Part shown: positions 50,153 to 53,406 of the stretch, one piece after another
Layout: every line of letters begins with the position of its first letter
Position numbering within the stretch: position 1 is the first letter of the stretch
DNA from: an uncultured Phycisphaerales bacterium
GTDB lineage: Bacteria; Planctomycetota; Phycisphaerae; Phycisphaerales; UBA1924
Assembly: GCA_937995595.1 (NCBI GenBank)
Contig: CALKJW010000018.1
Coordinates: forward strand, 1-54,844
Length of the DNA: 54,844 bases
Direction: 5' to 3'
Position numbers and translations under genes: made by a program
The notes under the pieces: model-generated
The model's input: only the letters and a program-made list of their open reading frames with translations
What the model was told of the DNA's origin: nothing
The model's database searches: none

Positions 50153-50392
50153 TCAGTCGCGCGGCTCAAGCCGGCCGCGCAGGTTGGGTTGGCGGCGTCC
50201 GAACGCGTCCTCGACGTACTGCGGCGCATGCCGGTTGCGTACCGCGTCGTAGCGGTCGAACGGCGAGCGCTCCTCCTTGGGCGAGAGCAGCGGGCGCGAA
50301 CACCCGAGAACGCCGGCGACCACCGCTCCCGCGGCGATGCACGCGGCGAGTCGGGCGGGCGTTCGAGCGGGTCTGGCGGCGCGGGTCGGCAT
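50153..50392 (-). CDS. Small hypothetical lipoprotein
   Basis: A 79-residue protein that I do not recognise. It begins MPTRAARPARTPARLAAC, has a hydrophobic core IAAGAVVAGVLGC with a lipobox-like LGC at about residues 28-30, and a polar Arg/Asp/Glu-rich tail (PFDRYDAVRNRHAPQYVED). It probably is a small periplasmic lipoprotein. ATG at 50392; the frame continues upstream as an antisense shadow, so the short form is preferred. It lies 20 bases after trmL and could be co-transcribed. A real gene is likely but not proven. Confidence 0.55.
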   Translation of the reverse strand: MPTRAARPARTPARLAACIAAGAVVAGVLGCSRPLLSPKEERSPFDRYDAVRNRHAPQYVEDAFGRRQPNLRGRLEPRD

Positions 50393-50412: not shown

Positions 50413-50931
50413 TCAGCGCGTATCGGGCGCGACGATCAGCCGGCCGCGTCCGTCGAGCCGCGCCTCGCCGCGGCACACCAACCGGCGGATGCCCTCGTAC
50501 ACCGCGGCGCACACCGCGGTCGCGAGGTTGAGCGACCGCTCGTCGGGCACCATCGGCAGCGCGAGCAGGCGGTCCGGATAGAGCGACAGCACGTCGGCGG
50601 GCAGGCCGCGCGTCTCCTTGCCGAACAGCAGGTGGTCGCCGCGGCGGAAATCCGCGTCCCAGACCGGGCGCGTCGCCTTGGTGGAAAAGACCCACGTCCG
50701 CGCGCCGGCGTGGCGCGAGCGGTACGCGTCGAACGAGGTATGCTCGACCGGGCGCAGCCGCGGCCAGTAGTCCAACCCCGCGCGCCGGCACGCCTTCTCC
50801 GAGGTGTCGAAACCCAGCGGGTGCACCAGGTGCAGCGCACACCCGCACGCGACGCACGTGCGCCCGATGTTCCCCGTGTTGTTCGGGATCTCGGGCTCGT
50901 GCAGCACGACGTGGAACAGCGGCTCGCTCAG
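50413..50931 (-). CDS. trmL: tRNA (cytidine/uridine(34)-2'-O)-methyltransferase TrmL
   Basis: A SPOUT-class methyltransferase of about 170 residues that 2'-O-methylates position 34 of certain leucine tRNAs. Its blocks match TrmL: HEPEIPNNTGNIGRTC, LDYWPRL, LLFGKETRGLP and the knot segment MVPDERSLNLATAVCAAVYE. Start choice is uncertain: a CTG at 50931 overlaps the stop of the thioredoxin gene (CTGA), a second CTG lies at 50919 and the first standard codon is GTG at 50907, which would remove part of the first beta strand. Alignment to E. coli TrmL favours initiation near 50919-50931. No ATG fits. The small lipoprotein gene follows after 20 bases. Confidence 0.93.
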   Translation of the reverse strand: MSEPLFHVVLHEPEIPNNTGNIGRTCVACGCALHLVHPLGFDTSEKACRRAGLDYWPRLRPVEHTSFDAYRSRHAGARTWVFSTKATRPVWDADFRRGDHLLFGKETRGLPADVLSLYPDRLLALPMVPDERSLNLATAVCAAVYEGIRRLVCRGEARLDGRGRLIVAPDTR

Positions 50932-52067
50932 CCCTTCTTCTCCGCGGCCCGGCGCGCCGCCACGCCGGGGTCGGCGGCGATCACGGCCTTGACCGTGTCG
51001 GCGAACTTGCCGTCGTGCGGGTTGCCCTGCCAGCGGATCACGCCGTCGGACGACAGGATGACCACGTGCGGGATGCCGCGGACCGACATCGCGTTGCTCA
51101 GCCGTCGGTTCGGGTCCAGCGCCTGCGGGTAGCCGTGGCTCCTTTTGTCGAGGAACTGTTTGACCGTGCCCTCCGCCTCGTTGCTCAGCCCGATGATGAC
51201 CAGATCGCTCTGGAGTTCCTTCTGCAGGGCCTCGAGTTTGGGCATCGCGGCGATGCACGGCCCGCACCAGGTCGCCCAGAAGTCGATCACGGTGACCTTG
51301 CCGTCGCGATCGGGCTGGTCGGTCAGGTACTTCGCCTGGCCGAGGCCGCCGCCGGGCAGCGGCTTGCCCTGGAAGTTTGCCGCGCTCAACTGGCCGCTGT
51401 TCTGCGCCGGCCACTTGGCGGCGGCATAGGCGGAGGCGGGCGGCGGCGTGTACCTGCCCCTGCCCTTGCCCGCGGTCGGCGCGGGCTTGGCCTGCCTGGC
51501 GGCCTCGGCCGCGGCCTTGGCCTGTTCGTCCGTCTCGGCGACGAGCATCGCGGCGGCCGAGTCGATGCCCTCGGTCATCACGTCGGCGAAGCGCATGTTG
51601 CCGGCCCGGTCGATGAAGAACACGTCCGGGTGCGCGTCCCCGCCGAGGTCCTTGAGAAACTCGCCGGTGTTGTCGTGCGCGATCGGGAAGGCGACCTTCG
51701 ACGCGGCGGCCGTCTGCGCGGCCTTGTCCCAGCCGTTCTTGTCGTGCACGCCGATCACGACCAGTCCCTGCGACGCGTACTTCTCGTGGGCCTCCTGCGC
51801 GGCGACGAGGGCGCGCGCGGACGCGTTGTTCCAACTCGCCCACGTCACGATGCACACGACCTTGTTCTTCAGCGAGTCGGCGTTGAGCGGGCTCGCGTTC
51901 AGCCACGGCCCCAGTTTCCGCCACTGCGACTGGTCGAAGGGCGTGAAGTGCGTCGCGTCCATCTTCTCGCGGTGCGCGCCGCGGCCTTCGAGGCGGACCT
52001 CCTGCGAGAGCGCGGGCGCGGCAAGGCCCAACGAGGCGGCGACAACGGCGAGCAGCGTGCGGTTCAT
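50928..52067 (-). CDS. Exported double-thioredoxin-fold protein (first domain inactive, second TlpA-like)
   Basis: A 379-residue exported protein with signal peptide 1-21 (ALSQ). The N-terminal thioredoxin-like domain (about 35-185) has WASWNNAS where WCxxC should be (Asn80, Ser83), so it is redox-dead. The C-terminal domain (about 235-375) keeps WATWCGPC with Cys268 and Cys271, and the cis-Pro region GIPHVVIL, so it should act as a periplasmic thiol reductase or oxidoreductase. The central linker is Ala/Lys/Pro-rich. It is a paralogue of the next gene (26 bases apart, minus), with the same mature start VRLEG/VSLEG and DATHFTPFDQS/DAMHFKPFDQS. ATG 52067. It may act as a resolver or chaperone of thiol proteins. 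Confidence 0.88.
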   Translation of the reverse strand: MNRTLLAVVAASLGLAAPALSQEVRLEGRGAHREKMDATHFTPFDQSQWRKLGPWLNASPLNADSLKNKVVCIVTWASWNNASARALVAAQEAHEKYASQGLVVIGVHDKNGWDKAAQTAAASKVAFPIAHDNTGEFLKDLGGDAHPDVFFIDRAGNMRFADVMTEGIDSAAAMLVAETDEQAKAAAEAARQAKPAPTAGKGRGRYTPPPASAYAAAKWPAQNSGQLSAANFQGKPLPGGGLGQAKYLTDQPDRDGKVTVIDFWATWCGPCIAAMPKLEALQKELQSDLVIIGLSNEAEGTVKQFLDKRSHGYPQALDPNRRLSNAMSVRGIPHVVILSSDGVIRWQGNPHDGKFADTVKAVIAADPGVAARRAAEKKG

Positions 52068-52092
52068 GGGGCGGTCCTTGTGGGGGTGCGGT

Positions 52093-53406
52093 TCAGCGGC
52101 CGGTGGTGGTGGTGCTCTTGGCCGCGGCGTCCTCGGCCTTGCGCCGTGCCTGCACGCCGGGGTCGAGGTTGATCAGGTTGCGGATCATCGCGTGATAGGT
52201 GTCGGTCGTGGGGTGGCCGAGGAAGCGCATCGCGCCGTCGGAACTCAGGATGAAGGTCGCGGCCATCTCCTCGCCCACGGGCCGGAAGATCGGGATCGCG
52301 CCGTTCTGGAACGCCTCGGACTGGACGCGCCCGACGACGATCGGGTGGTTGGCCTCGCGGTTCTGCTTGATCGAGTTGACGATCGCCGCGATCCGCCGCT
52401 CCAGGTCGGCCTGGTCGCGCGGGTCGAGTTCGCCCTGCTGCTGGTTGTTCTGGTCGTAGCGTGCGATGCTCCCGATGACCACCACGTCGCGCACGTACAG
52501 GTCCTGCAGCCGGTTCATCTCGCGGATGATGTTGATCATGTCGCGCCGGCGCGGGTCCATCAGGTACACGATCGTCAGTTTGCCGCGGGTGTTCGGCACG
52601 CCCGAGGTCCAGCCCTCCTCGGGCAGCGAGACCTTCGGGCCGTCCTTGTTGATCTTGTCGATCAGGTTGTCGATCTCGGTCGATCCTTCGAAGTTGAACT
52701 TCGCCAGCCGCGGCCAGCGGACGGCGGCGTACGCCTCGGCGTCGGGGTCCTCGAAGGCGACTGACGGCGCGTCGCCGGGCTTGACGCGTCCCTGCACGTC
52801 GCGGAACCGCAGGGCGTCGCGCTGCTCCGCGGCCTTGCGGTCCCTGATCGAGGCGAGCACGCCCGCGGCCTTGTCGGGCGTCTCGGCCAGCAGTTCGGCG
52901 ACCGCCGCGTCGACCGAGTCGGTCTCGACGTCGGCGTAGCGCATGTTGCCCGCGCGGTCGATGACATAGAAGTCCGGGTCCTGATCGACCTTCAGCGCCT
53001 CGCGGAACCTGCCCTTGGGGTCGGCCGCCCACGGGAAGGTCACGCCCAGTTGCTGCGCGACCGCGGCGCCCGAGGCGAAGTTCTGCGGGTGGTGCACGCC
53101 CACGACGACCAGCCCCTTGTCCGCAAGGCGCGCGTGCAGCGCCTGCGCCTTGCGCACCGCGCTGTGCGACTGGCGGTACCAGCCCGACCAGGTCACGATC
53201 AGCACGACCTTGTCCTTCGTGCTCTCGGCCGTCGGCGCGGCGCCGGTCCACTCGCTCAGTTCGCCCCAGAGCGACTGGTCGAACGGCTTGAAGTGCATCG
53301 CGTCGAGTTGCGCGCGGCGCTCGCCGCTCCCCTCCAACGAGACCTGACCCAGCGCGGGCGCGCCAAGGGAGAGAATCGCACAGGCGACAAACGCGGCGGT
53401 CTTCAT
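52093..53406 (-). CDS. Exported double-thioredoxin-fold paralogue, both active sites lost
   Basis: A 437-residue protein with signal peptide 1-20 (ALGQ). Domain one (about 40-185) has TWSGWYRQS in place of WCxxC (Tyr77, Ser80). Domain two (about 260-420) keeps the thioredoxin strands (LTIVYLMDPRRRDM) but no CXXC. The protein shares the mature start and middle (FYVIDRAGNMRYADV against FFIDRAGNMRFADV) with the gene at 50928, so the pair arose by duplication. With no redox cysteines, a binding or scaffold task is more likely. The ATG at 53406 is clear; the longer upstream frame is antisense to other DNA. Confidence 0.82.
   Translation of the reverse strand: MKTAAFVACAILSLGAPALGQVSLEGSGERRAQLDAMHFKPFDQSLWGELSEWTGAAPTAESTKDKVVLIVTWSGWYRQSHSAVRKAQALHARLADKGLVVVGVHHPQNFASGAAVAQQLGVTFPWAADPKGRFREALKVDQDPDFYVIDRAGNMRYADVETDSVDAAVAELLAETPDKAAGVLASIRDRKAAEQRDALRFRDVQGRVKPGDAPSVAFEDPDAEAYAAVRWPRLAKFNFEGSTEIDNLIDKINKDGPKVSLPEEGWTSGVPNTRGKLTIVYLMDPRRRDMINIIREMNRLQDLYVRDVVVIGSIARYDQNNQQQGELDPRDQADLERRIAAIVNSIKQNREANHPIVVGRVQSEAFQNGAIPIFRPVGEEMAATFILSSDGAMRFLGHPTTDTYHAMIRNLINLDPGVQARRKAEDAAAKSTTTTGR

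Follow-up and report, generated by a model that had tools for sequence, protein, structure and literature searches.

The Trx (thioredoxin) fold is used for substrate binding, without a CXXC motif, by the non-catalytic b domains of the protein disulfide isomerase (PDI) family and by ERp29-like proteins. Here, we describe two adjacent genes, A and B, in a 54,844-nucleotide stretch of DNA (hereafter, the window) from an uncultured Phycisphaerales bacterium (assembly GCA_937995595.1, contig CALKJW010000018.1, positions 1 to 54,844 of the forward strand). Each gene encodes an exported protein of two Trx folds, and among the four folds a single CXXC motif is intact. Judged from sequence, the pair would be TlpA/ResA-like redoxins carrying dead modules, with a stepwise history of active-site loss and a plausible non-redox function.

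In the PDI family, a non-catalytic domain is found next to a catalytic domain, an arrangement to be compared with A, or alone, to be compared with B. The active-site motif of PDI is CGHC, while that of A is CGPC. Unlike the PDI and ERp29 proteins, A and B are bacterial and ResA-like, and client binding by them is something that we infer. The closest known architecture to that of A is provided by AhpF, a cytoplasmic protein. Specifically, the N-terminal domain of AhpF is made of two Trx folds in direct succession, which between them have one redox-active cysteine pair (PMC12288474). A likewise possesses two Trx folds and a single CXXC, located in its second fold. A differs in that it lacks a flavoprotein reductase/FAD part (there is no such Pfam match, and two Trx domains fill the chain of 379 amino acids), in that it is exported, and in that it derives from a different Trx subfamily. 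A bacterial Trx domain with a degraded motif, analogous to those in B, occurs in CnoX (YbbN) of Escherichia coli, which carries SXXC and another cysteine, has no oxidoreductase activity, and acts as a holdase (PMC6282202). CnoX is one Trx domain fused to tetratricopeptide repeats (TPRs) and keeps cysteines; B has two Trx folds and, in the window, no cysteine in its mature chain, and Pfam finds no TPR family in either A or B. Finally, A and B resemble the TlpA/ResA/CcmG-type oxidoreductases in being exported (judged by eye) and in possessing the Trx fold, and domain 2 of A has the CGPC, the buried Asp, and the cis-proline (cis-Pro). They depart from that group in that each is a fusion of two domains, the first of which lacks CXXC, and in that B lacks any CXXC. 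Neither protein reaches an NCBIfam cut-off: the best score of A is 79.1 bits versus 170 (ResA), and the best score of B is 29.9 versus 123.15 (dsbE). We found no report on this pair in the literature that was searched, which excluded most subscription papers.

A and B lie head to tail on the minus strand, with B upstream. B (52093-53406) is an intact open reading frame (ORF) of 437 amino acids, and A (50928-52067) is an intact ORF of 379 amino acids. The spacing between the stop of B at 52093 and the start of A at 52067 is 25 base pairs (bp), and AAGGA lies within the gap. Neither gene contains an in-frame TGA before its stop codon. By eye, both proteins have Sec-type signal peptides, ending APALS-Q and APALG-Q; that of B (MKTAAFVACAILSLGAPALGQ) covers residues 1-21 (53344-53406, cleavage site approximate) and is modeled with a predicted local distance difference test (pLDDT) score of ~50. 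The mature N-termini are alike (EVRLEGRGAHREKMDATHFTPFDQSQW in A and VSLEGSGERRAQLDAMHFKPFDQSLW in B), with the common start xVxLEGxGxxRxxxDAxHFxPFDQSxW. An earlier, sequence-only reading of this DNA had described two adjacent exported proteins with the same domain order, mature N-terminus, and signal peptide type, and the ORFs and motif strings bear this out.

The sole intact CXXC is the CGPC of A domain 2 (51255-51266, residues 268-271, string WCGPC). This domain is a catalytic-type Trx domain (50931-51413; Pfam match at residues 243-346). A domain 1 (51522-52001) has NNAS at the corresponding site (51819-51830, residues 80-83, string WNNAS), and B domain 1 (52852-53343; Pfam AhpC-TSA match at residues 60-157) has YRQS (53167-53178, residues 77-80, string WYRQS, placed from its alignment column). 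B domain 2 (52096-52716, residues 231-437), which ends in a DPGVxARR tail, has no active-site motif at all: its local string is YLMDPRRRDM, the position equivalent to CGPC is RRDM (52537-52548, residues 287-290), and Tyr281 stands in place of the buried Asp. The only cysteines in mature A are the CGPC pair and residue 72; mature B has none. Thus, the sequence-only reading was right that three of the four domains lack both cysteines and that WCGPC survives in a single second domain; it placed that domain in the first protein, and A is second in transcription order.

All four domains are homologous Trx folds. A matches PF00578 (AhpC-TSA) with 100.1 bits over two stretches and B with 36.4 bits over one (Pfam cut-off, 26), and both also match Redoxin PF08534. 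The first domains of A and B are 46% identical (profile comparison E 1.9e-82), and hhalign aligns B domain 2 with A domain 2 at a probability of 99.94% (E 2.3e-36). In profile comparisons, the four kinds of dead domain all pair with their nearest live counterparts at 99.6% or higher; the weakest dead–live pair, B domain 2 with domain 1 of the relatives that carry CXXC in both domains, reaches 71%. The cysteine pattern is more than chance because the two first domains are 46% identical and the profiles tie all four domains to CXXC-bearing Trx domains. AlphaFold2 models of A and B, with mean pLDDT of 88.7 and 85.0, respectively, both show Trx topology. Structural comparison with VIA-align places A domain 1 (model residues 38-177) on ResA-type 4nmu (Z 18.2, root-mean-square deviation [rmsd] 2.0, 136 aligned), B domain 1 (model residues 27-175) on the DipZ C-terminal domain (2hyx/5cyy; Z 17.5, rmsd 2.2, 147 aligned), and A domain 2 (model residues 226-373) on CcmG (2g0f; Z 14.5, range 14.4-14.5, rmsd 2.7, 138 aligned). 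With full-length B as the query, domain 1 fills the VIA-align list and domain 2 is absent from it, and the assignment of B domain 2 is based on its profile match to A domain 2 and on the strand–helix order of the predicted model. The cysteine-free domains are thus not of another fold, as the hhalign match and the modeled topology indicate.

To place the pair among its relatives, we used 100 regions from relatives plus the window, which yielded 115 candidate proteins and, from these, 107 alignment rows with two assessable domains. The eight candidates left out were fragments, single domains, and one giant ORF; the long rows L081, L096, L106, and L118 were set for cutting. At E<=1e-5, 118 of 150 genomes, the window's own among them, contain a B-like match, and a B orthologue with 81% identity is present in a Phycisphaeraceae metagenome-assembled genome (G001, locus L044). 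CXXC is present in both domains in 16 of the 107 rows, in the second only in 37, in neither in 53, and in the first only in one. That one, L121 (genome G147), shows the reverse pattern, with CGPC in domain 1 and WAGPS in domain 2. A/B-type genes exist in 67 regions (window included) from 67 of the 90 genomes of the family that we call f1, and they supply 77 rows, of which 24 carry CXXC in domain 2 and the other 53 lack it altogether. The near relatives do not keep CXXC throughout: domain 1 lacks it in 77/77 A/B rows, and both domains lack it in 50/50 rows of the B clade, the only CXXC in any B row being that of the fused CGPC domain in L081. All 24 A rows retain both cysteines in domain 2 (CGPC in 21, CPPC in two, CAPC in one). 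The second-Cys position of domain 1 is occupied by Ser in 24/24 A rows; among the 53 rows without any CXXC, it is Ser in 35 and Ala in 12, and the equivalent position of domain 2 is Ser or Thr in 42. One cysteine is left at the domain-1 site of the B protein of L093 (WYAPC). A second double-Trx group, with a dead domain 1 (typically QSWTxxxxG) and a live domain 2, comprises 13 rows (L126-L131, L133, L134, L137, L138, L140, L142, and L143); nine come from family f1 genomes, none among the 67 with A/B, and four from other families of the order.

The order of the losses can be read from trees. When the active-site columns are left out, the full-length tree unites the 77 A/B rows in one clade (support 100), inside which the 50 CXXC-less B proteins group together as a clade of their own (99); the nesting of B among A-type rows is supported at just 83-87. 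In a domain-1 tree, also built without active-site columns and containing live, selenocysteine, and other dead first domains for comparison, a single clade with a Shimodaira–Hasegawa-like approximate likelihood ratio test (SH-aLRT) value of 99 unites 22 A rows with 14 of the 48 B rows. Because domain 1 of A and domain 1 of B form one clade, the cysteines of domain 1 were most likely gone before A and B separated. B would descend from an A-like protein and would have lost the second site afterwards. The sequence-only reading had proposed a duplicated scaffold in which redox function was concentrated in one domain. A duplicated double-Trx protein with redox chemistry possible only in A domain 2 is what stands of this proposal; concentration of redox function as an outcome of the A/B duplication does not, as the domain-1 loss most likely predates the split. 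Three proteins (L100, L104 with WAPTS, and L105) score as lacking both motifs, yet the tree places them in the A lineage, where we count them; they appear to be separate losses of the second site. Domain 1 of A, of B, and of the L126-L143 group forms one clade (98) when active-site columns are included. Without those columns, a free search does not recover this clade, and it is not rejected (approximately unbiased [AU] test, p 0.587); in the full-length tree, the L126-L143 group sits with the proteins that have both motifs. The loss of domain-1 cysteines across A, B, and this group is one event or two.

More distant relatives add a further state of the first domain. A B profile searched against 392 genomes of the phylum matched 35 at E<=1e-20, and full-length B was not found outside family f1 in that search. 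Nineteen matched genomes belong to other classes, and there the matches are confined to domain 1. In 15 of these 19 domain-1 relatives, the first-Cys codon is an in-frame TGA (mostly WGTWUGPC, also WUPPC); the remaining four, as well as the order-level locus L177, have Cys at that position. The apparent selenoproteins (L158-L167, L169-L172, and L174), in some of which this domain is followed by another, UGxC-bearing Trx-like domain, are similar to A and B in mature N-terminus and domain 1, and differ in having TGA at the first-Cys position where A and B have Asn or Tyr. Three of them, L158-L160 (genomes G273, G342, and G318), are apparent double selenoproteins, with WGTWUGPC or WUPPC plus APWUGWC or APWUGYC in the second Trx domain. 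In the domain tree with active-site columns included, the selenocysteine rows join dead domain 1 at support 90. The NCBIfam model NF041054 (WAxxUGC_long, cut-off 300) is related to the planctomycete selenoproteins; the one scanned, at 51.9 bits, is not a member, A scores 59.7 bits, and B gives no match at E<=1. We considered and rejected the use of selenocysteine by A, B, or their near relatives: several relatives' matches had listed one internal TGA (L108 and L109 were checked among these), and when L108, L109, and L111 were translated through TGA, the codon proved to be at the gene end and not at the active site. An in-frame TGA at the first-Cys position was confined to the domain-1 relatives of other classes. 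Matches to tRNA-Sec (RF01852) occur in 91/91 genomes and 14/14 controls and lie above the Rfam cut-off in 54/91 and 5/14, the window's genome included at 48.5 bits. We took the tRNA as real at 64 bits or more, a cut of our own, which 12 of the 91 relatives reach and the window's genome does not. ARAGORN, applied to the window's genome and to G023 out of the 54 above the Rfam cut-off, gives tRNA-Ser as the best match in the former, with tRNA-Cys listed second, and tRNA-SeC in the latter (69.6 bits).

Although B has no redox motif, much of its scaffold is held fixed. Across A/B rows, the cis-Pro of domain 1 is present in 76/77 and the His of the GVH motif in 77/77. Twenty-two columns, the start Met included, reach at least 90% conservation in A and B alike, among them His105/108, the domain-1 cis-Pro, DRAGxxR, SxDxxxR, and the tail DP. 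An Asp at the start of the xFWATWC motif, which we take to be the equivalent of E. coli Trx Asp26, marks live domains. It is kept in 22/24 A second domains and is Tyr (Tyr281) in 49/50 B second domains; for dead domain 1, loss of the buried acid was read from the active-site strings. Other residues are conserved in B and not in A: along with Tyr281 (98%, where 92% of A have Asp), these are Arg306 (100%), His354 (96%), Asp143 (98%), and Arg135 (94%). Columns fixed in B but not A argue for divergence rather than decay. Sixteen columns are invariant in 46 aligned B proteins, and the reading frame is open in 50/50 B rows. For one close pair, the window and L045, the ratio of nonsynonymous to synonymous substitution rates (dN/dS, NG86 method) is 0.155 for A and 0.228 for B; by domain, it is 0.162 and 0.087 in A and 0.178 and 0.32 in B. 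Thus, purifying selection acts on both genes in this pair. The history of B looks like remodeling under constraint, not decay.

B is also retained where A is not. Among the 67 family loci, 11 genomes have both genes (in one, A is cut by the contig end: L096_p_5672, one of the eight candidates left out of the rows, is tallied as the eleventh), 39 have B without A, and 17 have the A lineage alone. Of 20 B-without-A genomes searched for a second A-like protein at E<=1e-30, 17 yielded none; matches came from G007, G011, and, in the form of the B–CGPC fusion, G022. B is therefore independent of A in much of family f1. A CXXC-less protein that is kept without its partner argues against an obligate partner system, and the suggestion of the sequence-only reading that A and B are possibly binding partners is not supported here, if partnership is meant as obligate.

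We consider it somewhat more probable than its negation that A acts in the periplasm as a TlpA/ResA-like reductant whose N-terminal domain is non-catalytic and that its paralogue B has a non-redox role, in which it binds clients or serves as a scaffold. Anatomy, homology, the likely order of loss, selection in the close pair, locus conservation, and independent retention are the observations from which this proposal starts; the compartment, the direction of electron flow, and client binding are what we infer. The notion is that the N-terminal domain of both proteins lost its redox center before the duplication and then became fixed as a structural or substrate-binding module, a role that may be likened to that of the PDI non-catalytic b domains or of the first fold of AhpF. 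The C-terminal CGPC domain of A could still exchange electrons, most likely as a reductant. The window's genome has one DsbD_TM gene above the Pfam cut-off, and electrons for A might come from this DsbD-type membrane protein. B would have arisen from an A-like copy by losing the second redox center whole, both cysteines and the buried acid, while keeping the scaffold residues that it has in common with A. B would then most likely be a periplasmic, non-redox client-binding protein, a holdase or scaffold, able to work without A, since over half of the loci that were examined have retained B alone. A more specific version is that B is a periplasmic chaperone or scaffold made of two dead Trx folds, which was derived stepwise from a double-Trx enzyme (whose N-terminal domain has relatives elsewhere in the phylum that mostly carry selenocysteine) and displaced its redox-active sister at the orthologous locus in more than half of the family members examined. 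We offer this version tentatively, as a possibility that falls a little short of an even chance.

If true, these proteins would constitute a natural series from selenocysteine or cysteine enzyme to half-dead enzyme to pure binding protein. The steps exist side by side: double-Trx proteins have two CXXC motifs (these are encoded elsewhere in the genomes and in the order), one in the second domain only, or none, with the last two forms at one conserved locus of a single family and apparent selenocysteine relatives elsewhere in the phylum. The series makes a general question testable, namely, what role a Trx fold has after its chemistry is gone and whether selection can favor a binding scaffold over an enzyme. 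It also calls for caution in annotation: A and B both score as redoxins (PF00578/PF08534), though B has no CXXC.

Several points weigh against our proposal. The trees were quick searches. The structural models are good for single domains and not for the mutual arrangement of the domains (predicted template modeling scores of 0.50 for A and 0.57 for B). Absence of A is read from assembled genomes with completeness of 60-100%. After residue 30, B proteins have no cysteine in 30/50 rows, one in 11/50, and two to four in 9/50. B domain 2 is under the weakest constraint, and some relaxation is possible; its cis-Pro is kept in just 30/50 B rows. Finally, a dead module is in some cases coupled to an additional live module. 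A natural fusion (L081:1115-3052, plus strand) joins a CXXC-less B to a C-terminal CGPC Trx domain, the A proteins of L106 and L118 have a second CGPC domain, and separate CXXC-bearing Trx genes lie just upstream of A in L107, L110 (CPPC), and L115 (CGPC). Such couplings would fit a partnership in those genomes. The Trx gene of L110 (ORF p_2939_3791) has four further CxxC pairs ahead of its CPPC domain.

The L081 fusion, together with the tandem arrangement and the 25-bp gap, is what one would expect if B, in a complex with A, offered substrates to the one CGPC domain of its partner. The first domains of A and B from the window and L045-L049, moreover, form one clade (97), as gene conversion or shared contacts might give. 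This joint clade is insecure, as the AU test does not reject a tree in which B domain 1 is monophyletic (p 0.223), and within-genome identity between the two first domains is barely above the between-genome means, in L067 falling below one of them. Given also that either gene is so often found without the other, we regard such a complex as unlikely. Concerted evolution of the two first domains, a candidate that we set aside, was suggested by that one clade and is not secured by the same test.

Two other explanations concern what B became. Near-fixation of Tyr281, Arg306, and His354 in B and the Ser/Thr preference at the old second-Cys position of domain 2 could signify that B, or the dead N-terminal domains, gained other chemistry, such as metal, heme, or ligand binding at the old active-site face, in place of protein-client binding. 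We deem this improbable: the Pfam and NCBIfam matches of A and B are to redoxin and thioredoxin families only, and the invariant His, Asp, and Arg residues of domain 1 also occur in six relatives with CXXC in both domains and are thus probably structural. That B is simply a functionless copy, decaying because selection on it has relaxed, seems to us very improbable. The dN/dS of its second domain, the highest of the four, its variable residues at the old CXXC, and the partial loss of its cis-Pro are as decay would predict; the uniformly open frames, the invariant columns, the columns fixed in B and not in A, and the retention of B without A in 39/67 loci are not.

The surroundings of the pair are conserved as well. 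Directly downstream of A is a TrmL-type SpoU tRNA 2'-O-methyltransferase gene (50413-50922, minus strand, start codon approximate; PF00588 E 5.9e-28), which scores 154.1 bits with TIGR00185 TrmL, below the cut-off of 190.6. A TrmL-type gene lies downstream on the same strand in 59/67 loci (2.4 kb away in L105), specifically in 38/39 loci with B without A, 9/11 with both, and 12/17 with the A lineage. On the upstream side, ORFs of one BLAST cluster occur in 53 loci, an upper figure given that the hub ORF is long and partly non-coding, and the two examples scanned are SpoU-family methyltransferases. The window, like L045, L047, and L048, has an alcohol-dehydrogenase-like gene upstream. Because the same genes flank most loci, most A/B genes occupy one orthologous place. 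We regard the TrmL-type and upstream SpoU-family genes as conserved neighbors and claim no functional link.

Beyond the TrmL-type gene lies a small lipoprotein gene (50153-50392, minus strand, 79 amino acids, no Pfam match), which is beside A/B in 51/67 loci. We considered its product as a partner and rejected it: the gene is present in 146/150 genomes of the order, with or without A/B, which signifies synteny, not partnership. A tail of ~45 residues is conserved (ERSPFDRYDAVRNxxAPQYVEDxFGRRxPNLRGRL), and almost all genomes of the order that were searched have a single match. The protein is an unnamed core lipoprotein of the order.

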